A stretch of 35,952 bases of DNA from positions 1 to 35,952 of the IMG/VR virus record IMGVR_UViG_3300044692_000039; one strand, given 5' to 3'. This document shows positions 5,129 through 35,768 of the stretch, one piece after another (positions within the stretch are counted from its first letter, which is position 1; each line of letters begins with the position of its first letter). The position numbers were made by a program, and so were the translations under genes. The notes beneath the pieces are model-generated. The model did not search any database and was not told the origin of the DNA. It was given only the letters and a program-made list of their open reading frames with translations. The DNA comes from a virus.

Positions 5129-5659
5129 ATGGCAGGGCCAGGCCGCGGCAAGAACGGCAAGTTCACCCGCAGCGTCGACACCGCAGCCAGGGACGCCGAG
5201 GCCGCTCACCTGCGCTCCCGTGGCCTGAGCTATCGGCAGATCGCCGAGCAGGTCGGCTACCAGGACGACAGCGGCGCCTACCGGGCCGTGCAGCGCGCAC
5301 TGGTGGCGACCGTGACCGAACCGGCCGAGGAGGTCCGGGCGCTCGCGCTCGCCCAGCTCGACCAGTTGGCGCTCGCCGCGCTCGGCGTGCTGGAGCGGCA
5401 GCACGTCACCGTGTCGCAGGGCCGGATCGTCCGGGAAGAGGACGGCACTCCGATCCTGGACGACGCGCCGGTGCTGGCCGCGATCGATCGTCTGGTCAAG
5501 ATCCAGGAGCGGCGGGCGAAGCTGCTCGGCCTGGACGCCCCTGCGCGTCATGAGGTGGTGAGCCTGGATGCCCTCGACGCTGAGATCGCCCGACTCACCG
5601 CAGAGCTTGGCCGAACTCCGGCTGGAGAAACTGCTCCGGCTCCGGCAGCTCCGGAATGA
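5129..5659 (+). CDS. Terminase small-subunit-like DNA-binding protein
   Basis: 176 aa, ATG 5129 behind GGGGAGG (5117-5123). The N-terminus is basic (GRGKNGKF); residues 20-60 form a helix-turn-helix (AAHLRSRGLSYRQIAEQVGYQDDSGAYRAVQRAL), followed by helices (residues 65-130) and an Ala/Pro-rich end. Small terminases bind the packaging start site and hand DNA to the large subunit. It lies directly upstream of the large subunit and overlaps it by 92 bases. Family membership is judged by layout and position. Confidence 0.75.
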   Translation: MAGPGRGKNGKFTRSVDTAARDAEAAHLRSRGLSYRQIAEQVGYQDDSGAYRAVQRALVATVTEPAEEVRALALAQLDQLALAALGVLERQHVTVSQGRIVREEDGTPILDDAPVLAAIDRLVKIQERRAKLLGLDAPARHEVVSLDALDAEIARLTAELGRTPAGETAPAPAAPE

Positions 5660-7055
5660 ACTGGCCGCACGTGACGTAGCCGTCGACGAGTCGGTCGGCG
5701 CGATGACGTGCCGTCTGGACCCGACAACGCGACAGACTCCGGCACTGGACCTGCTGGACGCCAAGCTCCGCGCGGTTGCCGAGGGCCGGATCACCCGCCT
5801 GATCTGGTCGATGCCTCCCCAGGAGGGCAAGTCCGAGCGGGTGTCCCGGCGGTTCCCGGCGTGGCTGCTGCGCCGCAATCCGGATCTACGCATCGCCATC
5901 GCCTCCTACGAACTCGGCGTGGCCCGCCGGTGGGGCCGCGCGATCCGCAACGACACCGTCGAGCACCCCGATCTCGGCCTGCGTGTCCGGTCCGACACCT
6001 CGGCGGCGCACGAGTGGCAATTGGACGGTCACCGCGGCGGTGTCTACTCGGTCGGCATCGGCGGCCCGCTCACCGGCCGTCCGGTCGACGTGCTCGTCAT
6101 CGACGACCCGGTCAAGGGCCGCGCCGAAGCGGACAGCGAGATCATCCGGGAGAACTGCTGGGACTGGTGGACGAACGTCGCCCGCACCCGGCTGGCGCCC
6201 GGCGCGCCGGTAGTGCTGATCCTCACCCGGTGGCACGAGGACGACCTGGCCGGGCGGCTCATCAAGGCCGGCGGCTGGGAAGTCGTCAACATCCCCGCGC
6301 AGGCCGAAAACAACGACCCGCTCGGCCGGCCACCTGGCGAGTATCTGGAGTCAGCGCGCGGCCGCACGCCGGACGAGTGGCAGGCCATCGAACGCGACGT
6401 CGGCCCGCGGGTGTGGGCGGCGCTGTACCAAGGCCGGCCGTCGCCGGCAGAGGGCAGCACGTTCAAGCGCGGTTGGTGGCGCTACTACCGGGCACCGCAG
6501 TGGCGTCAACAACCTGACGGGTCCATGCGTATCTCGGACGAGTTTGACGAGGTGATCGCCTCGTGGGACATGACGTTCAAGGACACCAAGGGCACCGACT
6601 ACGTCGTCGGCGGCATCTGGGCGCGGCGCGGCGCCGACGCCTACCTACTGGACCTCGTGCGGGACCGGATGGACTTCCCCACCACCTGTCGCGCGGTGGC
6701 CGCGCTGGCCGTGAAGTGGCCGCAGGCGCACGCCAAACTGGTCGAGGACAAGGCCAACGGCAGCGCAGTCATCGCGCAGCTTCGATCCGTTGTAGCCGGC
6801 CTGATCCCGATCAACCCGACCGAGTCCAAACAGGCCCGCGCCGCTGCCGTGTCGCCGTTCGTCGAGTCCGGCAACGTGTACCTGCCCGACCCGTCCCTGG
6901 CGCCGTGGGTCGGCGCGTTCGTCGAGGAGCACGCCGGGTTCCCCAATGGCAGCCACGACGACCAGGTGGACATGACCTCGCAGGGCCTGAACCGGTTACT
7001 GGTCAACACCAGTGCCGCAGCGACGTTCCTACAGCAACTGACTATCGGGAGGTGA
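5568..7055 (+). CDS. terL: Phage terminase large subunit (DNA-packaging ATPase/nuclease)
   Basis: 495 aa. ATPase: Walker A-like PPQEGKSER (about residues 83-91, Lys 88), Walker B VLVIDDP (about 174-180) and a coupling motif LILTRWHEDDLAG. Nuclease: D-containing SWDMTFKDT (about 332-340) and a final HDDQVD (about 464-469), giving the metal-binding Asp residues of the RNase H-like domain. The enzyme translocates DNA into proheads and cuts concatemers. The chosen start overlaps the small subunit gene by 92 bases; the first 55 residues are weakly conserved in such proteins, so a later start cannot be excluded. Confidence 0.93.
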   Translation: MPSTLRSPDSPQSLAELRLEKLLRLRQLRNELAARDVAVDESVGAMTCRLDPTTRQTPALDLLDAKLRAVAEGRITRLIWSMPPQEGKSERVSRRFPAWLLRRNPDLRIAIASYELGVARRWGRAIRNDTVEHPDLGLRVRSDTSAAHEWQLDGHRGGVYSVGIGGPLTGRPVDVLVIDDPVKGRAEADSEIIRENCWDWWTNVARTRLAPGAPVVLILTRWHEDDLAGRLIKAGGWEVVNIPAQAENNDPLGRPPGEYLESARGRTPDEWQAIERDVGPRVWAALYQGRPSPAEGSTFKRGWWRYYRAPQWRQQPDGSMRISDEFDEVIASWDMTFKDTKGTDYVVGGIWARRGADAYLLDLVRDRMDFPTTCRAVAALAVKWPQAHAKLVEDKANGSAVIAQLRSVVAGLIPINPTESKQARAAAVSPFVESGNVYLPDPSLAPWVGAFVEEHAGFPNGSHDDQVDMTSQGLNRLLVNTSAAATFLQQLTIGR

Positions 7056-7056
7056 G

Positions 7057-9030
7057 ATGTCGCGCAAGCTGGGCATCCGCCGTCCCCGTGTCGCCGGCAT
7101 GCCGGCTGGCCCGCTCGTCAAGGCCAGCTCCACCGTTGCCACGCCGACCGCGCTGCCTGGTGGGCTCGCGCTGCCGGCCGGGTCCACTGTCACTGACGCG
7201 ACGTCGATGCTGGGCGCGTTGCAGGCCCGCACCGCGGGCGCCATCGACGGTGCCACGCCGCTGCCTCGGGACGTGGGGTTCTGGGCGCTGTTCGGGCCTG
7301 GCTCGCCGCTGTACCCGTCTCCGCTGAACACCCCGAACCCGACGACCGGGCAGCAGGACCCGCGCCGCTGGGAGTTCCCGGTCAGCTGGAACCTGACCAA
7401 CAAGAACCGGGTGGTGGACTGGCAGACGCTGCGGGACGCGGCCGAGAAGGTCGACATCATCCGGCTGTGCCTGGAAACCCGCAAGGCCGAGCTGACCGAG
7501 CAGGAATGGGACATCACCGTCACCGCCCGCGCGGCGCAGCAGGCCGGGGCGGTCACGCCGAAGGACAAACAGGAAATGCGGGAGCAGTTTGCCCCGATCA
7601 TCGACCGGCTGATCGACTGGTGGACCGTTCCGGACAAAGTCAACGACATGGAGTGGTCGTCGTGGATGATGATGCTCTGGGAGGAGTATCTCGTCCTGGA
7701 CGCGCCGTCCGTGTTCCCGCGCATGACCTACGGCGGCCAACTGGCCAGCCTGGAGATCATCGACGGGTCCACGATCAAGCCTCTGCTCGACGAGTACGGC
7801 AACACCCCCATGGCCCCGGCGCCTGCCTACCAGCAGTGGTTGTACGGCTTCCCCCGCGGCGAGTACACGGCCGCGTCCGGCGCGGACTGGGAGGCGCCCA
7901 AGGGTGGGCTGATCTACAAGCCGCGCAACATCCGCACGTTCACGCCCTACGGCTACTCGGTGGTGGAGCAGGCCCTGATCTCGGCAGAGATCTACCTGCG
8001 CCGGCAGGACTGGATGCGGCAGGAATACACGGCCGGCACCCTGCCGACCACGTGGCTGAAGTCCGATGTGTCGCTGGGCCAGTTGACGCCGGAGCAGTAC
8101 CGGGCGTGGAACGCCGCCCTGAACGACCTGCTGTCCGGGGACACCACCAACCGGCACCGCAACCAACTGCTGCCGCTCGGGTTCGACCCGGTACCGACGG
8201 CTGACGCGGCCGAGAGGTATCGGCCCGAGTACGACGAATTTCTGATCAAGCTACTGTGTGCGCACATCGGTGTGCCGCCGGAGGAGATCGGATTCACCCA
8301 GCAGCGCGGACTGGGCGGCTCTGGCCACGCCGAGGCCCAGGACGCCGTCAACAAGCGCAAGTCGATCCGGTCGGCGAACTCGTGGTTCGTCGACGTGTTC
8401 AACTCGATCTCCCGCCGCTTCCTCGGCATGCCACCGCAGTTGACGCTGCACTTCCTCACCGGCGAGGCCGAGGACGAGGCAGCAGCCGACGGCGTGGCGG
8501 ACACCCGCGTCAAGGGCGCGCGGATGACGTTCAACGAGGACCGCGACCGGCAAGGCATGCCCCGCTACGAGGCCGAGTGGGCGGACTCGCCGATGGTGAT
8601 GACCGCGACCGGCCCGGTGTGGCTGGACAAGGCGTGGGAAGCCGCGAACGAGCCACCCGCACCGGTGCCGCCCGCGTTGGCCGCGCACGCCGGTGTGCCG
8701 CCGGACCAGCCGGACACCGAGCCCGACGAACATCCGGACGGTAGCGACGCGGGCGGCCAGCCGGACGGCGGCCAGGGCGACGCGGCGAAGGCCGAGTTGG
8801 CCGCGTACCGGCGGTTCGTCGCCAACCCGCGCGGTTTCGCGCGGGGCCGGCCGTTCGAGTTCACCGCGGTCACGAAGACTGAGGCGCTCGCGGCCGGGGT
8901 GGACTTGACGCGGGTGACGTTCAAGGCGGTCGATGCCAGGGGGCGAGGAGGAGCGCCTGCGGGCGCACGACGCGGTGACCGAGCGGAATACGCCGGCTAT
9001 CCGATCGGCGCTGCGGGCGCTCGTCCCTGA
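7057..9030 (+). CDS. Phage portal protein
   Basis: 657 aa, ATG 7057 one base after the terminase stop, behind GGGAGGTGAG. The N-terminal 85 residues are Ala/Pro/Thr-rich; the portal fold begins near WALFGPGSPLYPSPLNT and includes helices such as VDIIRLCLETRKAELTEQEWDI and the stem region YGYSVVEQALISAEIYLRRQDWMRQEY, with IGVPPEEIGFTQQRGLGGSGHAEAQ later. Portals form the dodecameric ring through which DNA enters and leaves the head. The tail after residue 530 is Pro/Asp/Gly-rich, and the end runs 98 bases into the next gene in another frame. Confidence 0.9.
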   Translation: MSRKLGIRRPRVAGMPAGPLVKASSTVATPTALPGGLALPAGSTVTDATSMLGALQARTAGAIDGATPLPRDVGFWALFGPGSPLYPSPLNTPNPTTGQQDPRRWEFPVSWNLTNKNRVVDWQTLRDAAEKVDIIRLCLETRKAELTEQEWDITVTARAAQQAGAVTPKDKQEMREQFAPIIDRLIDWWTVPDKVNDMEWSSWMMMLWEEYLVLDAPSVFPRMTYGGQLASLEIIDGSTIKPLLDEYGNTPMAPAPAYQQWLYGFPRGEYTAASGADWEAPKGGLIYKPRNIRTFTPYGYSVVEQALISAEIYLRRQDWMRQEYTAGTLPTTWLKSDVSLGQLTPEQYRAWNAALNDLLSGDTTNRHRNQLLPLGFDPVPTADAAERYRPEYDEFLIKLLCAHIGVPPEEIGFTQQRGLGGSGHAEAQDAVNKRKSIRSANSWFVDVFNSISRRFLGMPPQLTLHFLTGEAEDEAAADGVADTRVKGARMTFNEDRDRQGMPRYEAEWADSPMVMTATGPVWLDKAWEAANEPPAPVPPALAAHAGVPPDQPDTEPDEHPDGSDAGGQPDGGQGDAAKAELAAYRRFVANPRGFARGRPFEFTAVTKTEALAAGVDLTRVTFKAVDARGRGGAPAGARRGDRAEYAGYPIGAAGARP

Positions 9031-25330: not shown

Positions 25331-25521
25331 TGTTCAGGCCCGGAGGACACAACGGCCACACCGTCTACTGGGACGACGAGGGGTCCGATCCGAGCCGGTT
25401 CGTCGCGGTGGCCATGACACCGATGGCGGCGGTGCGGATCGCTGATGCCCTGAACCGGGCGGGCGTCGAAGGGGACTGGATTGACGCGCTGCCGCCAATT
25501 CCGAAAAGGGGGACAGCATGA
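25330..25521 (+). CDS. Unknown small protein before the endolysin, 63 aa
   Basis: ATG 25330 overlaps the previous stop; ends overlapping the endolysin ATG. The product MFRPGGHNGHTVYWDDEGSD followed by a helix (MTPMAAVRIADALNRAG) and GDWIDALPPIP looks like a small alpha-beta fold. Not recognised. Coupling suggests co-translation with the endolysin. Confidence 0.55.
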   Translation: MFRPGGHNGHTVYWDDEGSDPSRFVAVAMTPMAAVRIADALNRAGVEGDWIDALPPIPKRGTA

Positions 25522-26321
25522 GGACTCTCTACGATTCGACCAACTGGTCCGCCATCCCGACCACGGCGCAGATGGTCGCCGGCTACGTCCCTCCGTCCGG
25601 GTTCGCGTGGCCCCAGTCCGCGTGGAACCGGTTCCCGAACAGCATCCATGTCCGGATCACTCCGCAGGTGTCCACCACTGGTGTGGGTGTGCAGGTGCTG
25701 GACGTGGAGCAGGGCGACGCCACTCCGGCGCAGGCCCCCGGCTGGGTGATCACCCAGCGCCGGCTCGGGCAGATCCCGACGGTCTACTGCTCGGCCAGCC
25801 TGTGGGGCACCGTGCAGGCCGCGTTCGTCTCGGCTGGTGTGCCGCACCCCTGCTACTGGATCGCCGCCTACCCCGGCGGCGGCCCGACGCTGCCCACGTT
25901 GAACGGCATCACCGCCGTGGCCCACCAGTACGCCGACCCGGCCACGTCGGGCGGCGACTACGACCTGTCCGTCGTGGCCGACTACTGGCCCGGCGTCGAC
26001 CAAGGAGGAGGAACCGTGCTCGACCCCACCAATCCCACCGACGAGACCGTGATCGCCGGCGCCGAGTCCTGCCTGCCCGGCATCGCCGGCCAGCGCTCGG
26101 CCGGGGACCTGTACCTGCTCTGCTACAACACCCAACAGCAGGTTGCGCAGATCGCGACAGCTCAGGCGGCGCTGACGTCCGTCGTGGCCGACCTGCAGAA
26201 GGCCGTGGCCGCGCTGACGCCGCCGACCGCACTGGCCGGACAGGCAGCCGTGACCATCCAACTCGCCCCACCCGCCGCGAACCCGGCCGCGCCGGCCAGC
26301 ACCCCGGCAGGTGTGGCGTGA
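25518..26321 (+). CDS. Endolysin, GH25-like (glycoside hydrolase-like) domain with helical C-terminus
   Basis: 267 aa, ATG 25518 behind AAAAGGGGGACAGC. Residues 1-165 form the GH25-like barrel common in actinophage lysins: LYDSTNWSAIPTTAQMVAGYV, QVLDVEQGDATPAQAPGWV (carboxylates), PTVYCSASLWGTVQAAF, YWIAAYPGG, HQYADP and GGDYDLSVVADYW. The C-terminal 100 residues hold a helical segment (LYLLCYNTQQQVAQIATAQAALTSVVADLQKAVAAL) and a Pro/Ala tail. It should cut the glycan chain of peptidoglycan. No signal peptide, so it needs the downstream holin. An internal start is described separately. Confidence 0.85.
   Translation: MRTLYDSTNWSAIPTTAQMVAGYVPPSGFAWPQSAWNRFPNSIHVRITPQVSTTGVGVQVLDVEQGDATPAQAPGWVITQRRLGQIPTVYCSASLWGTVQAAFVSAGVPHPCYWIAAYPGGGPTLPTLNGITAVAHQYADPATSGGDYDLSVVADYWPGVDQGGGTVLDPTNPTDETVIAGAESCLPGIAGQRSAGDLYLLCYNTQQQVAQIATAQAALTSVVADLQKAVAALTPPTALAGQAAVTIQLAPPAANPAAPASTPAGVA
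26016..26321 (+). CDS. Probable internal translation product of the endolysin gene, 101 aa
   Basis: Inside the endolysin frame, AAGGAGGAGG (26002-26011) is followed at ideal spacing by an in-frame GTG at 26016. It would give a separate C-terminal polypeptide starting MLDPTNPTDETVIAG and including the oligomerising helix. The site is built from three consecutive GGA glycine codons, unusual in this GGC-rich gene set, which suggests selection for ribosome binding. Similar internal starts make extra binding subunits in some Gram-positive phage lysins. Not proven here. Confidence 0.5.
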   Translation: MLDPTNPTDETVIAGAESCLPGIAGQRSAGDLYLLCYNTQQQVAQIATAQAALTSVVADLQKAVAALTPPTALAGQAAVTIQLAPPAANPAAPASTPAGVA

Positions 26322-26627: not shown

Positions 26628-26978
26628 CTACTTGTCGTCTTTTCGTCCCGGCCGGTTCAGGAACGTGCCGATCAGCACAAGCACTGGGACGCTGAGGAAT
26701 GCCCCACCACCGGCGTTGTTGTGCTGGAAGAAGAAGATAGACGCTAGGGTCATGGCCACGATGACCAAGAGGAATGCTATCGCCTGACCTGTGCGCGTCC
26801 GGTCGATCTCCGCTTGTGCCAGTTCCCTGTCTACCCGGGCGCGTTCCGTGCTATCGGCTTCGGCCATCCGGATGATCCGTTCCGCAGCACCCGGGACGAT
26901 CTCGTCGTAGGCTCGCAATATGTCTGGTGCCGGCATGGGTCCGCGCCATTCGCTGGAGATCTCCAGCCGCTGTAGCAC
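26628..26978 (-). CDS. DUF2335-type membrane protein
   Basis: Core (GPMPAPDILRAYDEIVPGAAERIIRMAEAD) is the DUF2335 signature: P-x-P-x2-L-x2-Y-x3-(V/I)PGAAERII-x-MAE, followed by a charged helix and two membrane segments (FLLVIVAMTLASIFFF and FLSVPVLVLIGTFL). The start is unclear. GTG 26978 gives 116 aa. The same frame is open up to an ATG at 27356, but the stretch 27020-27226 has clearly better codon use in another frame, so the long version is doubtful. Members are found next to phage and defence genes; function is unknown. Confidence 0.75.
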   Translation of the reverse strand: MLQRLEISSEWRGPMPAPDILRAYDEIVPGAAERIIRMAEADSTERARVDRELAQAEIDRTRTGQAIAFLLVIVAMTLASIFFFQHNNAGGGAFLSVPVLVLIGTFLNRPGRKDDK

Positions 26979-27019
26979 TAGTTCAGCAGCGACCTGCGCG
27001 AGTTGCTCCGGCTCCTGGT

Positions 27020-27226
27020 TTACCGCTTGCTGAGGTTGCGGCCGACCGCCCGGACCGCCCGCGCCAGCGCCTTGGCCACGTTGTTCCAGGCGTCGGCGAC
27101 GGGATCGTGATCGCGCAGGTCGCGCCGCATCGCCCGCAACCGGGGCGAGGGATCGAGGCTGATCGTCGCCAATCCGGCCCTCAGGTCCGGCGTCCTGTGC
27201 CGCAGCGTCCGGTCTGTCCGACTCAT
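27020..27226 (-). CDS. Small basic protein upstream of the DUF2335 gene, 68 aa
   Basis: ATG 27226 (or TTG 27244) starts MSRTDRTLRHRTPDLRAGLA and the frame ends NLSKR at TAA 27020-27022. Nearly every codon ends in G or C, whereas the overlapping DUF2335 frame does not, so this is the likelier coding frame here. The C-terminal half is a basic amphipathic helix (DAWNNVAKALARAVRAVGRNL). Probably co-transcribed with the DUF2335 gene. Not recognised. Confidence 0.5.
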   Translation of the reverse strand: MSRTDRTLRHRTPDLRAGLATISLDPSPRLRAMRRDLRDHDPVADAWNNVAKALARAVRAVGRNLSKR

Positions 27227-27562
27227 CCGACCCTGCCTCTCCAAGGCGACCCTGTTCGCCCGATTCGCCAGCCACGTGCGTTTGCCCTTGGTCCGTCTTT
27301 CGAGTGTGACCTCTACCCCCGGGCAATCGCCACACCCGAACGTGGCCGTTACTCATGTCACTCGAACGGAGCCCTGGATGTGTCTACCCGGTCGGGGATC
27401 GGCACACCACTCCACTGGCCACTCATCACCCAGACGAGGTCACGCGCCTGCCCATGCATCCGGACCTAACCCATCGTCACCGACGAACTGCTGGGCGCAC
27501 TGGCCGACCGATGGGCCGACACCAACCCGTGGGTGTGACCGCCCGATCAGCACCCCGCCAGG
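27227..27562. other. 336-bp stretch without a supported gene
   Basis: Several frames are open but lack ribosome sites and third-position G/C bias. A run reading VTDELLGALADRWADTNPWV (27477-27536, rightward) looks protein-like but follows an in-frame stop and has no start; it may be the end of a decayed gene. The stretch should contain the promoter for the leftward genes at 27226. I see no clear terminator or repeat. Confidence 0.4.
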
Positions 27563-28382: not shown

Positions 28383-28586
28383 GACTCGTGGGGGCAGGGG
28401 CAGCACTCGGGGTGACCGACGAACTGCCCCTGCCCCGGAACGCGGCGGGTTTGGAGCCCCCTGCCGTCACGGTGGGTGAGACCGCCGCGCGTGTGCAGTG
28501 ACCGCACGGTCCGGAGCCGGGGGATGGAGGACTCGGGCGCAGCCACCACGCCATAGTGAGCCACTGATGCGCAATGGACAAGCAAA

Positions 28587-28601
28587 ACTCGAAATTCGAG
28601 T
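28587..28601. promoter_or_regulatory. Palindromic operator candidate before the DUF6879/XRE module
   Basis: ACTCGAA-A-TTCGAGT is a perfect 7+1+7 inverted repeat, AT-rich at the centre in an otherwise GC-rich 296-bp divergent gap (28383-28678). It lies 78 bases before the GTG of the first gene of the module and between two operons pointing away from each other. It is the natural binding site for the XRE regulator encoded at 29404. TGGACA at 28574-28579 could be a -35 element. The rest of the gap shows nothing definite. Confidence 0.55.
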
Positions 28602-28678
28602 GAGTGACTACCCGGTTGGGGGACTGTGGCCAGTCGGACGACCCGATTACATGGGGCTCACCCCAACAAGGAGGCATC

Positions 28679-28885
28679 GTGCAGCTCACGCACTTGGGCA
28701 CCGAATCCGGCAAGACCGGCTGTCCGTCCGTCTTCGCCACGGATCGCGGCACGTTCGTCGTGCAGGGCTGGAAGATCACCGACGAAGCAGCGCTCACCGA
28801 GCTGCGTCGCCGCGGCCTGCCCGACCACGAGACCGCGATCGAGATCCCCGCCGAGTTGGCCCGACACTTCCCGACCAGCGCGTGA
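28679..28885 (+). CDS. Small conserved protein, first gene of the DUF6879/XRE module, 68 aa
   Basis: GTG 28679 behind AAGGAGG (28668-28674). The product contains CPSVFATDRGTFVVQGWKITD and ends LPDHETAIEIPAELARHF. Small proteins with this ATDRGTxVVQGxxVxD...LPxHExxVEIP pattern are widespread beside DUF6879 and XRE-DUF5753 genes in Streptomyces and Pseudonocardiales. It probably folds as a short beta sheet plus helix. Its stop overlaps the DUF6879 start (TGATG). Function has not, to my knowledge, been shown. Confidence 0.75.
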   Translation: MQLTHLGTESGKTGCPSVFATDRGTFVVQGWKITDEAALTELRRRGLPDHETAIEIPAELARHFPTSA

Positions 28886-29385
28886 TGGGCCTCGCCACAC
28901 GGGCGGAGTTCGAGCGGCTATTCGATCGGTTCACTCGCTCGGCGTGGCGACTGGAGTGCCAGGGCGTCTATAACGAGCCGGAGGAGCGCGAGCCGCTGAA
29001 GCGGTTTCTGGCCGGCGAGCCAGACGACGGCGCCTGGTTCGCCGACTGGCCGGTGTGGATTCGCGCGCAGCGCGCAGCCGGCCGGACCGTCAGCCGGGTC
29101 CGGGTGATGACCGAGCCGTTGACGGACTACCTCCGCTTCCAATTCACGATCACGCCGCCAGCGGTCGAGGCGGGGGAAGACATCCGGCTGCTGCCGGCGG
29201 CCGCGTTCGCCGCGTTGGACCTCCCCCGAGAAGACTTCTGGCTGTTCGATGACACCGTCGTCGCCCTGTTGCACTTCGGCGACGACGGCGTGGCAGGCGT
29301 CGAGATCATCACCGACGACCCGACGGTCGCGACCTTCCGCGAACGACGTCGCCGCACATGGGATGCTGCATTCCCGTACCGGTGA
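28885..29385 (+). CDS. DUF6879 family protein
   Basis: 166 aa, ATG 28885 overlapping the previous stop. Family features: N-terminal FERLFDRFTRSAWRLECQGVYNEPEEREPLKRFLAGEPDD, the block SRVRVMTEPLTDYLRFQF, RLLPAAAFAALDLPREDFWLFDDTVVALLHF, and a final helix FRERRRRTWDAAFPY. DUF6879 proteins are almost always followed by an XRE-DUF5753 regulator, as here. They may be effectors or partners of that regulator. No catalytic residues are evident. The family call is confident; the role is not known. Confidence 0.85.
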   Translation: MGLATRAEFERLFDRFTRSAWRLECQGVYNEPEEREPLKRFLAGEPDDGAWFADWPVWIRAQRAAGRTVSRVRVMTEPLTDYLRFQFTITPPAVEAGEDIRLLPAAAFAALDLPREDFWLFDDTVVALLHFGDDGVAGVEIITDDPTVATFRERRRRTWDAAFPYR

Positions 29386-29403
29386 TCGTCGGATGAGGAG
29401 ACC

Positions 29404-30249
29404 TTGACCAGCTTTCCCGCTCGTCGGATGGAGTTCGCCGACAAGCTGCGCGGTTACCGTGAGCGCGCCGGCCTGACCGGCAAACAGTTCGCCGCGGTGC
29501 TGGGCTGGTCCAACTCGAAGGTCTCCAAGATCGAGACGGCCAAGCAGACGCCCAGTGACGTCGAGCTGGACGAGTGGCTGGCCGCGCTGGATGTCCCCGC
29601 CGCCGACGCGCGCCAGTTGCACAACGAGTTGCGCGAGGTGCGCATCCAGCAGATCACGTGGCGGCGCCAACTCCGTGCCGGCCATCGGGCACGGCAGGAG
29701 CAGGATGCCAAGTCCGAACGCGACGCCACCGTGATCCGCGCCATCGACACCGCCGCAGTGCCCGGCTTGCTCCAGACGCCGGACTACGCGCGGGCGATCT
29801 TCACCAGCCAAGCCGCGCTGCTCGACGTGCCCGACGACATCGAGTCGTCGGTGCGGGCTCGGATGGAGCGTCAGCGCATCCTGTACGAGCCAGGCCGGAC
29901 GGTGGAGATCCTGGTGACCGAGGCAGCGCTGCGGCACCCGGTCTGCCCGCCGGCCGTCCTACTGGCCCAGCTTGATCGGCTCGGCTCCGCGCTCGGCCTA
30001 CCAGGAGTGCGGCTCGGTGTCCTACCGCTGGACGCCGAGCTACCGCACGTGCCGTGGCACGGCTACTGGATCGTGGACGACACCGTGTTCGTCGAACTGG
30101 TCACCAGCGAGGTCCGCGTCACCGACACGGACGAGATCGCCATCTACCACCGGCTCACGGACCGGCTGTGGTCCGTCGCGGTCGAAGGCGACGAGGCGCG
30201 GGCACTGCTGGCGCGCCTCGTCACCGAGTTGGGTCGGCGCGGCACCTGA
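29404..30249 (+). CDS. XRE family regulator with DUF5753 (Scr1-type antitoxin-like) domain
   Basis: 281 aa, TTG 29404 with GAGGAG three bases upstream (short spacing); ATG 29429 is possible but would trim the first helix. Residues about 8-62 are an XRE helix-turn-helix (LRGYRERAGLTGKQFAAVLGWSNSKVSKIETAKQTPS). Residues about 95-275 are DUF5753 (VIRAIDTAAVPGLLQTPDYARAIF, ERQRILYEPGRTVEILVTEAALR, then DDTVFVELVTSEVRV). The family includes Scr1/WhiJ-type regulators in actinomycetes, often paired with small DUF397 proteins; DUF397 is absent and DUF6879 takes its place. It may bind the palindrome at 28587 and act as prophage or host regulator. Confidence 0.88.
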   Translation: MTSFPARRMEFADKLRGYRERAGLTGKQFAAVLGWSNSKVSKIETAKQTPSDVELDEWLAALDVPAADARQLHNELREVRIQQITWRRQLRAGHRARQEQDAKSERDATVIRAIDTAAVPGLLQTPDYARAIFTSQAALLDVPDDIESSVRARMERQRILYEPGRTVEILVTEAALRHPVCPPAVLLAQLDRLGSALGLPGVRLGVLPLDAELPHVPWHGYWIVDDTVFVELVTSEVRVTDTDEIAIYHRLTDRLWSVAVEGDEARALLARLVTELGRRGT

Positions 30250-30843: not shown

Positions 30844-31007
30844 GGTGTCGCCGTCCCTGCCTCTCGGGATATGGATGCTCCTGACCGGTCGAACAAGGCA
30901 TCGCCCGATAAGCACATTTAGTTAGCGACTGTCCATCTTCTGTCACCCTCCGTGGAGCGGCATTGATTTACTGCCCCTTCCAAGAGGAGTTGGCTCCCAG
31001 GCATCGC

Positions 31008-31037
31008 GGTGCCCCGGTACGTGAGCACCGGGGCACC
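31008..31037 (-). terminator. Hairpin terminator after the DUF6907-like gene
   Basis: GGTGCCCCGGT (31008-31018) and ACCGGGGCACC (31027-31037) form an 11-bp stem with an 8-base loop, 24 bases after the stop of the leftward gene ending at 31061. It belongs to a set of similar GTGCCCC-type hairpins closing each leftward operon here. Confidence 0.7.
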
Positions 31038-31060
31038 GGGGGAAGTGTGACGTCGATCAG

Positions 31061-31474
31061 CTACGCGGGTCCTAGAACGACCCGCTTGGGGTAGCCCTCG
31101 GCCACCTCGGCGAGCAAGCTGGACAGCATCGCGATCAGTTTGGCCACGTCGTCGGCCATGAACGAGATCGTTACATGGTCGCTCGCGTGCAGTTGGAACT
31201 GGGGCCTTCCGCCCTCAACGAGCACGTCGGCGTACAGGGCGCCACACACGTGCCGCCGGTCCGTCCAGTGCTCCACGTCGTTCGGGCCGCAGTGCTCGTC
31301 GCCGCGCTCGCACCAGTCTGGGCAGACAATGACCTCTGGGTTGTCGGTGTCCACGATGGTGGCCGAGCGGTCGCCGTCAGCGGCGAGCACCTGCCCGGCG
31401 CCGGTGGCGACGGCCCCGCTGGCCGCGATGTCGTCCTCGGTCTGGTTGTGCGTTTGTTCCATGATCATCGTCAT
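31061..31474 (-). CDS. DUF6907-like protein
   Basis: 137 aa, started at ATG 31474 behind GGGGAG; an in-frame ATG 31507 is less well supported. The first 45 residues are acidic and flexible. The core IVCPDWCERGDEHCGPNDVEHWTDRRHVCGALYADVL, then RPQFQLHASDHVTISFMADDVAKLIAML, matches the DUF6907 layout: C-P-x-W-C, an H-x2-C/H set, then a strand pair and a C-terminal helix, probably binding zinc. The family is common on actinobacterial mobile elements with no known function. Confidence 0.72.
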   Translation of the reverse strand: MTMIMEQTHNQTEDDIAASGAVATGAGQVLAADGDRSATIVDTDNPEVIVCPDWCERGDEHCGPNDVEHWTDRRHVCGALYADVLVEGGRPQFQLHASDHVTISFMADDVAKLIAMLSSLLAEVAEGYPKRVVLGPA

Positions 31475-31620
31475 GGTCTCGGTCTCCCCGCCTGTGTCCG
31501 ATCCCAAACCTACGGACGTGATCTTGGTGCGCAGATCGTGCCGACGCCGACAAAAACGCAGGTCAGAAGTGCGTTCGAGGGCGAGTAACCACGGGCGGAA
31601 TATTATTGCAGCCGATGTTA

Positions 31621-31940
31621 CTTCTTGAGGTTATCCTCAAGAAGCCCTGGTCAGGGAAGTGTCCGTCCCGTGCGCGGGAGGGCGCGAATCAGTCCGTGCG
31701 GCGACGTTCGGAATTTCCGAACGTCCGTCCCGTGCGCGGGAGGGCGCGAAAGGTTGCTAGTACTTGCAACCTCCGGACGGCTGGTCCGCCCCGTGCGCGG
31801 GAGGGCGCGGCGTCCCGACGGGGCATCGATGCGATTGAGGGACTTGAAGTCCCTCAAATCAGCACTGTGCTCGTCACCGTTCAGGTGTCCTGACCAGCCA
31901 CTTTACGCGATCCCGTAAAGTGGTTCCCCCTGCGAGGGGG
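31621..31940. ncRNA. Hairpin array: about eleven inverted repeats in 320 bp, undescribed element
   Basis: Stems: 31621-31630/31635-31644 (10 bp, loop TTAT); 31645-31649/31652-31656; repeat hairpins at 31666-31679, 31728-31741 and about 31789-31802; 31703-31711/31717-31725 (9 bp); 31751-31757/31766-31772 (7 bp); 31823-31832 (gapless); 31835-31843/31849-31857 (9 bp); 31881-31885/31889-31893; 31898-31907/31914-31923 (10 bp); 31926-31931/31935-31940. Sequences of the stems differ from one another, while loops are mostly 3-8 bases, as expected for RNA or single-stranded DNA hairpins. All six frames here look non-coding. Strand, transcription and function are unknown; ncRNA is a working label. Confidence 0.5.
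31661..31811. repeat. Three 27-28 bp CRISPR-like repeats with 61-62 bp period
   Basis: Copies at 31661-31688, 31723-31750 and 31784-31810. Copies 1 and 2 are identical over 28 bases; copy 3 differs by T to C at position 6 and at its last base. Each has five bases GTCCG, a hairpin TCCCG-TGCG-CGGGA (first pair lost in copy 3) and a tail GGGCGCGA, the same geometry as type I-E CRISPR repeats. The two inter-repeat segments are 34 and 33 bases and each contains a palindrome. No cas gene or AT-rich repeat array beyond three copies is present. Confidence 0.65.
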
Positions 31941-31994
31941 GAGCATCCGACTCGGCTCGTCTGTTGATCCAACTTGGAACTACAGACGCGACGA

Positions 31995-32021
31995 TGCCCC
32001 CGGCCGAGTAGACCGGGGGCA
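31995..32021 (-). terminator. Hairpin terminator of the 32452-32045 operon
   Basis: TGCCCCCGG (31995-32003) pairs with CCGGGGGCA (32013-32021) across nine bases, 24 bases after the stop of the leftward gene. No T-tract. It also insulates the hairpin array on its left from the operon on its right. Confidence 0.7.
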
Positions 32022-32044
32022 CCTGTGGCGGGGTTGGGCACCGT

Positions 32045-32452
32045 TCAGGTCTGCCCGGGGTTGGCACCGCCAGTCTCGCGGTCGATCTCGTCTCGGATCG
32101 TTTCCTGCCCCAGGCGGGCGAAGTCATCGAGCGTGCCGCACGTTGCGTTGGGGTTGGCCACTCTGCCGATTTTCGCCATTCCAAGTAGCTCGCCTATCAT
32201 GCGGTCACGTGCAACCTGAGGGCCGTTCGGGTCGCCGTACTTGGCCATCACCATATTGAGCTCATTCAGGCTGTTCCAGATGCATGCGGCAGTTTTGAGA
32301 TCCAACTGGCAGAACTTGTCCCAGTTGGACAGGAGTCTTACGCCTGCCCGGCCCTCCTGAAGGCCGGCGCCCTCCCGGACCGCGGAACCTAGGTCGCGCC
32401 ATATAGCACGCCACAGGCGATCGATTTCGCTGACGTGACTGCTGTCTTTCAT
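32045..32452 (-). CDS. Unknown helical protein, 135 aa
   Basis: ATG 32452 overlaps the stop of the upstream gene (ATGA). The product is helical (VSEIDRLWRAIWRDLGSAVREGAGLQ, WDKFCQLDLKTAACIWNSLNELNMVMAKYG, LDDFARLGQETIRDEIDRETGG) with three Cys spread along it. No membrane segment or recognised motif. Operon partner of the gene at 32449-32838; the pair has toxin-antitoxin-like size and coupling, but no toxin motif can be named. Confidence 0.65.
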   Translation of the reverse strand: MKDSSHVSEIDRLWRAIWRDLGSAVREGAGLQEGRAGVRLLSNWDKFCQLDLKTAACIWNSLNELNMVMAKYGDPNGPQVARDRMIGELLGMAKIGRVANPNATCGTLDDFARLGQETIRDEIDRETGGANPGQT

Positions 32453-33962: not shown

Positions 33963-34163
33963 ATGGGTGAGCGCCGCAAGATCGGCCGGCCAGCGACTGG
34001 CAAGACGCCGCAGCACACTGTCCGCATGCCGGACGACCGGTGGGACGCCCTCGGCGCGAAGGCGGCGAAGGCTGGGTCGGATCGCGGGAAGGTGATCAAC
34101 GACCTGAGCGCCTGGTATGTCGGCGAGGACGGCGCGGAACTGCCTGAGCGGCCCGAGGTGTAG
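33963..34163 (+). CDS. Small ribbon-helix-helix/CopG-like regulator, 66 aa
   Basis: ATG 33963. The sequence GRPATGKTPQHTVRMPDDRWDALGAKAAKAGSDRGKVINDLSAWYVGED has the RHH pattern: a basic start, one strand (HTVRMP), helix (DRWDALGAKAAKAG) and second helix (DRGKVINDLSAWYV). No Shine-Dalgarno, but TAGGAT ends eight bases before the ATG, so the mRNA is probably leaderless. Probable autoregulator acting at the two dyads upstream, with the leftward operon as second target. Confidence 0.72.
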   Translation: MGERRKIGRPATGKTPQHTVRMPDDRWDALGAKAAKAGSDRGKVINDLSAWYVGEDGAELPERPEV

Positions 34164-34307: not shown

Positions 34308-35768
34308 ATGGCGTCCACGCAGCTCACCGGCCGAGAGTACAAGCGGGTCTCGCTCGATAAGTCGAAGCGCGCACGATCCGTCGAGGAGCAGGGCAAGGAG
34401 AACGCAGCCGCCGCTGAGGAGCGCGGCATCGTCCTGCGCGATCCGTACACCGACGTCGATCGCAGCGCATCCCGGTATGCCCGAAAGGCCCGCGAGGGGT
34501 TCGACCAGCTCCTCGCCGACCTGCGCGACGGCACGTTCAACGCCGACTTCTTGATCCTGTGGGAGTCCAGCCGCGGCTCACGGAAGGTTGGCGAATGGTG
34601 CGAGCTCGTCGACCTGCTGGAGAAGCGGCACATCCAGGTGCTCGTCACCTCGCACCGCCGGGTATACGACCCCGCCGTCGCCCGCGACCGCAAGGCGTTG
34701 CTGGAGGACGCGCTCGACGCGCAGTACGAATCGGACAAGAGCAGTGAGCGGTGCCGTCGGGCGCACGCGGCCAACGCCGAGGCTGGCCGGCCTCACGGCC
34801 CGGTCGCGTGGGGCTTCACGCGCCGCTACGACCCCGTGACCAAGGCGTTCGTGTCCCAGGACATCGACGAGACCCAAGCGCCGATGATCCGGGAGTTGTT
34901 CGAGCGGCTGGAGGCTGGCCACAGCCTCAACTCGATCGCTGTCGACTTCGAGCGTCGTGGACTGGTGGGGCGCAACGGGCGGCCGTGGCGGGCGGCACAT
35001 CTCCGCGAACTCGCCCTGCGTCCGGTCTACGCCGGCCTCCGCCAGCATCAACCGAAGGGCCAGGACCGCGCGGTCCTCACGTCGGCGGTCTGGCCGGCCA
35101 TCGTCCCCCTGGAGCGTTTCCTGGCCGTCCAGCGGCTGCTGACCGCCTCCGAACGCAAGTCCACCCGACCGGGCCGGGCCGCACACTTCCTCTCCCTGAT
35201 CGCCATCTGCGACACGTGCTCCGGTCCCCTCACTGCGATCACCCGGGACGGCGACCGTTTTTACCGCTGTCAGCGGAAGGGCTGTGTTCGCATCGGCGAG
35301 GACGAGTTGGACCGGTTGGTGGCCGGGGTCATCAAAGCCTGGGTTAGGCAGCACTACGACTCGCTCACGGTCACGGCCGACGACGACACCGAACTGGCCG
35401 ACGTGCGCGCCAAGCTGGCGAGGGCGCATGCTGAGTTGCGCGAGCTGGAGGACGAGGTCAAGTCCGGCCGGCTGTCCGCACGCTTCGCCGCGGCGACCGC
35501 CCCAGGCATCGAGGAGCGCATCACGCGGCTCGAACAGCAGGAAAAGGACCTCCTCACGCCGGGCGAGCTGGCCGGGCTGATCACGCCGGGCGAGGACATC
35601 GAGGAGTGCTGGAAGAACATGCCGCTACCGGCCAAGAGGCGCGTCGCTCGCCTCGTGCTCGTCCCCGGCCGGATCGGGCAGGTGCGGGTCCAGGCGGTGT
35701 CGGCGGGTCGTCGGGGTGGCGGGCGTCACGTGCCGGCGTGGGAGCGGGTCGACTTCTCGCGGGGGTAG
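34308..35768 (+). CDS. Large serine integrase (phage site-specific recombinase)
   Basis: 486 aa. Resolvase domain: YKRVSLDKSKRARSVEEQ with catalytic S15 flanked by R13, and later the conserved DFLILWESSRGSRKVGEW and RDRKALLEDALDAQYESDKSSERCRRAHAANAEAGRPHGPVAWGF blocks (about 80-170). Recombinase domain about 185-285 (MIRELFERLEAGHSLNSIAVDFERRGLVGRNGRPW). Zinc ribbon: C301-x2-C304 and C321-x4-C326, then a coiled coil (about 365-430) and a basic end. The enzyme integrates the phage at attB by attP x attB exchange. The directionality factor is not identified; candidate small genes lie at 3735 and 33963. Confidence 0.93.
   Translation: MASTQLTGREYKRVSLDKSKRARSVEEQGKENAAAAEERGIVLRDPYTDVDRSASRYARKAREGFDQLLADLRDGTFNADFLILWESSRGSRKVGEWCELVDLLEKRHIQVLVTSHRRVYDPAVARDRKALLEDALDAQYESDKSSERCRRAHAANAEAGRPHGPVAWGFTRRYDPVTKAFVSQDIDETQAPMIRELFERLEAGHSLNSIAVDFERRGLVGRNGRPWRAAHLRELALRPVYAGLRQHQPKGQDRAVLTSAVWPAIVPLERFLAVQRLLTASERKSTRPGRAAHFLSLIAICDTCSGPLTAITRDGDRFYRCQRKGCVRIGEDELDRLVAGVIKAWVRQHYDSLTVTADDDTELADVRAKLARAHAELRELEDEVKSGRLSARFAAATAPGIEERITRLEQQEKDLLTPGELAGLITPGEDIEECWKNMPLPAKRRVARLVLVPGRIGQVRVQAVSAGRRGGGRHVPAWERVDFSRG

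Follow-up and report, generated by a model that had tools for sequence, protein, structure and literature searches.

What kind of element is a run of some 350 bases in which palindromes follow one another almost without gaps, and would it act as RNA or as DNA? The question is raised by a virus record of 35,952 bases (GC content 67.7%), hereafter the window, in which a preliminary description had singled out positions 31621-31940 as a palindrome-saturated array, possibly a structured RNA, possibly a protein-binding stretch of DNA.

The phage and its gene neighbourhood

The window looks like the genome of an uncultivated temperate phage, probably of the siphovirus type and actinobacterial, the relatives of its integrase and of one regulator pointing to an actinobacterial host. 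A CHC2 zinc-finger primase-like protein is encoded at 701-1300, the terminase large subunit at 5568-7055 and the portal at 7057-9030; head genes come next, and the run of structural genes common to the relative G009 extends up to about 23.9 kb. The lysis region contains a probable endolysin (25518-26321; our own reading, with no Pfam match); next to that region, on the - strand, is a gene for a protein with a predicted DUF2335 membrane domain (26628-27356). A DUF6879 gene and then an HTH_31/DUF5753 regulator gene occupy 28498-30249 on the + strand; this pair, familiar from actinobacterial chromosomes, is here phage-borne. Small genes with no family match then form a leftward, - strand run (33825 to 31061), and beyond it are encoded an Arc-like RHH protein (33963-34163) and a serine integrase (34308-35768).

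The element thus occupies the lysogeny/accessory region, with the lysis genes on one side and the serine integrase on the other. Its two neighbours, 31061-31507 and 32045-32452, are both on the - strand. Neither of their products had relatives in viral contigs or phages, and the 32045 protein had none in 395 genomes. Downstream of 31061-31507 lies a strong 12-bp hairpin, CGGTGCCCCGGT...ACCGGGGCACCG (31007-31038), likely the terminator of that gene. At the other end of the window, just before the primase-like gene, the perfect palindrome TGTGGACGCGTCCACAT is present twice (511-527 and 632-648), with further GTGGAC/GTCCAC half-sites within 503-658; this cluster is likely a replication origin or an operator.

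Unrelated hairpins around a repeated unit

Four perfect 10-bp hairpins and one of 7 bp lie in 303 bases. The 10-bp ones are CTTCTTGAGG-TTAT-CCTCAAGAAG (31621-31644, loop of 4), GACGTTCGGA-ATT-TCCGAACGTC (31703-31725, loop of 3; as DNA, an 11-bp palindrome with a 1-nt centre), TTGAGGGACT-TGA-AGTCCCTCAA (31835-31857, loop of 3) and CCACTTTACG-CGATCC-CGTAAAGTGG (31898-31923, loop of 6); the shorter one pairs AGGTTGC with GCAACCT across 8 nt (31751-31772). G-U pairs are absent from the long palindromes, no two of which have the same sequence. A stem of nine pairs, GTTCCCCCT/GGGGGGAGC (31923-31944), with two G-U pairs on the + strand, overlaps the 31898-31923 hairpin by one base, so that the two compete. 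On the 3' side of the core element are found an imperfect hairpin (31952-31994) and a GC hairpin without T tract, TGCCCCCGG...CCGGGGGCA (31995-32021).

Such a density is far above chance, as the preliminary description had proposed: 2,000 composition-matched Markov sequences gave on the average 0.0125 stems of at least 9 bp (maximum 1, in 361 bases) against four observed, and 0.19 stems of at least 7 bp (maximum 4) against five. Its count of about eleven inverted repeats holds if short stems and the three stems of the repeated unit are included; otherwise, there are six local stems of at least 7 bp. The array it delimited at 31621-31940 is real, but the coherent element is 31610-31957, with two more hairpins at its 3' end.

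Embedded in the array is a 26-nt unit, GTCCGYCCCGTGCGCGGGAGGGCGCG, for which a pattern search gave three matches against none expected, at a pitch of 62 and then 61 nt, all on the + strand. Copy 1, GTCCGTCCCGTGCGCGGGAGGGCGCG (31661-31686), and copy 2 (31723-31748) are identical; copy 3 (31784-31809), which is predicted to form its own stem-loop, differs from them at a single position (C for T at 31789). Within the phage record, the unit is confined to the 31610-31957 array. The DNA between the units is unrelated, though copies 1 and 2 match over all 26 nt, which argues for selection, or recent copying, of the unit as a nucleic acid. With these spacings, 62 and 61 nt, copies 1 and 3 have a common reading frame from which copy 2 departs; the conserved entity is the nucleic acid. 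An orderly succession of hairpin, spacer and conserved unit had also been suggested. The stems do vary while the unit is kept, but the layout is less regular, the hairpin of the first interval abutting the downstream unit and that of the second interval the upstream unit.

The frames across the element are not empty, contrary to what the claim of a non-coding region might suggest: there are ORFs of 95 and 97 aa on the + strand and one of 68 aa on the - strand. Their GC content by codon position is flat (0.67/0.56/0.67 and 0.60/0.65/0.68 for the + strand ORFs, and likewise for the - strand one) when compared with that of the phage genes (0.7/0.5/0.88), and the absence of the usual pattern supports the non-coding assignment. 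The element is non-random, hairpin-dense and non-coding.

Searches for the exact unit and for unit pairs in viral and genome contigs returned just unrelated REP-like or coding repeats. In a Clostridia MAG from horse feces (G053, loci L106 and L107), the REP-like CCCTCCCGTGCGCGGGAGGGG and close variants are present in about 69 dispersed places, some pairs being 67 nt apart. In Streptomyces kebangsaanensis (L104, 2771-2870), five tandem copies of GGGCCGTGCGCGGGAGGGGY are intergenic.

The unit core TCCCGTGCGCGGGA is found in these two and in a Chloroflexi MAG, i.e. in unrelated palindrome families, with tandem core-bearing units in the latter two and dispersed near-matches in the first. These occurrences are what would favour a REP/BIME-like palindrome cluster, acquired from the host and without function for the phage. 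We consider this origin very doubtful, because the unit is restricted to the array within the phage record, the other hairpins are unrelated in sequence and the whole is predicted to form one closed structure.

Predicted fold, strand and possible function

RNA folding of 31610-32030 gave z-scores of -9.5 for the + strand and -8.5 for the - strand, and none of 100 shuffled sequences was as stable. A folding energy equal to that of shuffled sequence, which the preliminary description had named among the outcomes that would count against it, is not what we found. When 150-base windows were scanned over the whole record, 31651-31800 ranked third and 31801-31950 eighth of 239 by z-score; single windows elsewhere thus fold as strongly, and what distinguishes the element is its run of hairpins.

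In the predicted + strand fold, the core element (31610-31957, about 350 bases), a candidate structured non-coding RNA, forms one closed multibranch structure. The minimum free energy over 31608-31960 is -206.5 kcal/mol, pair probabilities are mostly 0.9-1.0 and nearly every predicted helix is above 0.8. A closing helix, 31610-31615/31952-31957 (p=0.99), extended by 31617-31619/31949-31951, encloses the 31621 hairpin, a large domain, the 31898 hairpin and the 31923 stem. The large domain is itself closed by a long-range + strand helix, 31647-31656/31888-31897 (CTGGTCAGGG/TCCTGACCAG, p=0.95), the 9-bp Watson-Crick core of which was equalled in 11 of 200 shuffles and is only weakly beyond chance. 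Inside are the three units. A pairing of unit 1 with unit 2 via UCCCGUGCGCGGGA, 14 bp long (31666-31679/31728-31741, p=0.99) with a further 6 bp, surrounds the 31703 hairpin; the stem-loop of unit 3 comes next, and then two more hairpins.

Signals for expression were sought on both sides. The + strand has a -10-like TATTAT (31601-31606), which the consensus scan did not find, 3-4 nt short of the closing helix, but it lacks a -35-like hexamer. The AT patch to which it belongs, near 31600, reads as a -10 on both strands, and an imperfect palindrome, AGTAAC...GTTACT (31584-31622), is centred on it; this is possibly an operator over the promoter. A scan of the element region found no T-tract terminator. 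The hairpins at 31952-32021 may serve as a terminator both for the element and for the convergent gene 32045-32452.

Since both neighbours are on the - strand, which also folds well and on which the AT patch can be read as a -10, the element could instead be part of the leftward run from 33825 to 31061, as a leader or intercistronic regulatory RNA controlling gene 31061-31507. We judge this unlikely. Initiation at a promoter at 31600 would take place downstream of the element, which would then be missing from the transcript, and the GC hairpin at 31995-32021 separates gene 32045 from the element. The - strand also has lower pair probabilities, several of them 0.6-0.8, and a fold 24 kcal/mol weaker than that of the + strand over 31608-31960. 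The corresponding gap over 31610-32030 is 19.2 kcal/mol, of which shuffles alone give 11.5; the gap is thus partly one of composition and makes for a weak call of the + strand.

The choice between RNA and DNA, both offered by the preliminary description, leans to RNA, best supported by the strong folding, the closing helices, the non-coding character and the variable stems; nevertheless, single-stranded DNA (z-score of -9.0) and the other strand fold almost as strongly. A DNA-level element could consist of binding sites for several dimeric proteins, of cruciforms, or of a sequence that folds back when single-stranded, as in a single-strand origin or a telomere-like array. It would account for the lack of G-U pairs in the long palindromes, two of which, as 11-bp palindromes around a 1-nt centre, have a form often seen in operators. 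The likeness extends to Streptomyces telomeres, which PMC4513846 describes as tightly packed palindromes, the element being likewise GC-rich and from an actinobacterial setting. The candidate differs from such telomeres and from replication iterons in that it is internal, in a phage endowed with a serine integrase, its stem sequences are unrelated, and no terminal protein gene was found among the proteins scanned. An iteron or operator array would be made of palindromes of the same sequence; here the long palindromes all differ, so that no one protein would bind them all, and it is the 26-nt unit that is repeated, to which a protein might still bind. Moreover, the likely replication palindromes are elsewhere and share the sequence TGTGGACGCGTCCACAT, as such palindromes do in relatives. 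On balance, we regard a DNA-level role as rather improbable.

The reading that we put forward, with confidence and doubt about equally matched, is that 31610-31957, perhaps to about 32021, would be a free-standing + strand gene for a structured non-coding RNA, which a temperate phage carries in its lysogeny/accessory region. The AT-rich patch immediately before it would drive transcription, and the operator-like palindrome may control this. Because the hairpins differ while the self-complementary unit is kept, the former are taken as a scaffold and the latter as what may be the working part. The most economical guess is that the unit serves as a multivalent decoy that binds a host or phage protein of the nucleic-acid-binding kind. 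Alternatively, the self-pairing UCCCGUGCGCGGGA might keep the molecule together or allow two RNAs to form a dimer. A role as protein decoy or scaffold is, within this explanation, a tentative proposal; an oligomerising RNA seems quite unlikely.

Relatives and known systems

Relatives of the element were sought in several ways. Blastn gave chance matches only in 50,697 phage records and 72,556 plasmids, and short GC-rich chance matches, the best of which were inspected, in 395 actinomycete genomes. A covariance model of 31657-31816, which, being built on a single sequence, has a limited reach, matched the window alone among 34 virus records, 297 genomes and 48 further loci. Nor was a relative of the element found in 50 records selected as terminase relatives, or in the flanks of integrase relatives (46-48% identity); relatives of the RHH protein had neither such an array nor element-like sequence. 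The phage with the nearest terminase (77%) is represented by a fragment of 18 kb, and the best syntenic relative, G009, has no such array in the 39.5 of 41 kb read. The lack of conservation in related prophages, which the preliminary description had listed as an argument against itself, therefore holds for the relatives sampled, but many of these are fragments, which makes absence weak evidence.

When the fetched loci of terminase relatives were scanned for hairpin clusters, all that emerged were chance clusters and arrays in which the palindromes have the same sequence. Two such arrays are found in related phages, apparently within coding sequence: TCCGGGATTCTGNGTCCCGGA at L153 12571-12830 (G012) and GGGTCACCTCTCAGGTGACCC at L141 19600-19776 (G007). 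They resemble the arrays of an origin or an operator and seem to differ in kind from the element of the window.

The preliminary description had been unable to match the array to a known RNA family, and we were led to the same conclusion: there was no match at gathering score in Rfam 15, which includes GOLLD, ROOL and c4, and with E-values up to 5 a single, spurious, snoRNA match emerged (15.9 bits for a cut-off of 60). The element is most probably an orphan RNA of the phage, which belongs to no known family although its general kind is familiar.

Phage c4 antisense immunity RNAs (RF01695) are small structured RNAs of the prophage immunity region. The c4 antisense RNA is listed in PMC2864571; the candidate resembles it as a small structured RNA in a prophage and differs from it by the lack of an Rfam match. 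A c4-type antisense action on the phage itself was considered and dropped: the longest complementarity between the element and the rest of the phage record is 13 nt, not beyond shuffles (mean 12.2, maximum 15).

RNA anti-CRISPRs (Racr) are the second term of comparison. Racr units are often intergenic in phage DNA, directly downstream of a promoter, and SRUs are defined as solitary repeats (PMC10651486). The candidate is also intergenic, with a GC-rich repeat hairpin, and its pitch of 62 and 61 nt is that of actinomycete type I-E arrays (61 nt). The unit could therefore imitate a type I-E repeat and act as a Racr, or the whole could be a decayed mini-array. The repeats compared were of type I-E, recovered beside cas2 in actinomycete loci (up to 30 loci). 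One of them, read as GGGTCCATCCCCGCGTGCGCGGGGAGCAG, aligns to the unit with 20 matches, one 3-nt and one 1-nt gap. The best local score against actinomycete I-E repeats was 30; of 1,341 GC-rich hairpins that have the shape of the unit but are unrelated to it, 5% align to an I-E repeat equally well or better. Mimicry had looked promising against plain shuffles (best p of 0.003 among 27 repeats) and was dropped as a lead on this structure-matched control. In addition, there are three copies within 150 nt instead of one, and the intervals are palindromic, unlike acquired spacers or those of a type I-E array; no cas gene was found among the proteins scanned. A CRISPR-repeat mimic is thus highly improbable. 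More ambitiously, the element might represent a new class of phage RNA, in which three self-complementary 26-nt units are set at type I-E pitch, with perfect hairpins in place of spacers, and which would capture a host nucleic-acid-binding protein or oligomerise during lysogeny; we hold this to be unlikely.

Few large structured RNAs are known from phages, and what they do is mostly unknown. An example as compact and well defined as this, from a lysogeny region, with a repeated unit hinting at the active part, would be easily testable, and the element stands as one well-supported candidate. Among the nearest known systems, GOLLD and ROOL are large multibranch non-coding RNAs of phages and prophages, of unknown function (PMC12286853). 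Their length ranges from about 660 nt to more than 800 nt, their structures covary and their relatives are numerous, whereas the candidate has about 350 nt and no relative of it was found. They often lie near tRNA islands, a location not shared here, as ARAGORN detected no tRNA in the window, and they form homo-oligomeric cages. What the candidate has in common with them is to be phage-encoded, non-coding and, in its predicted fold, multibranch.
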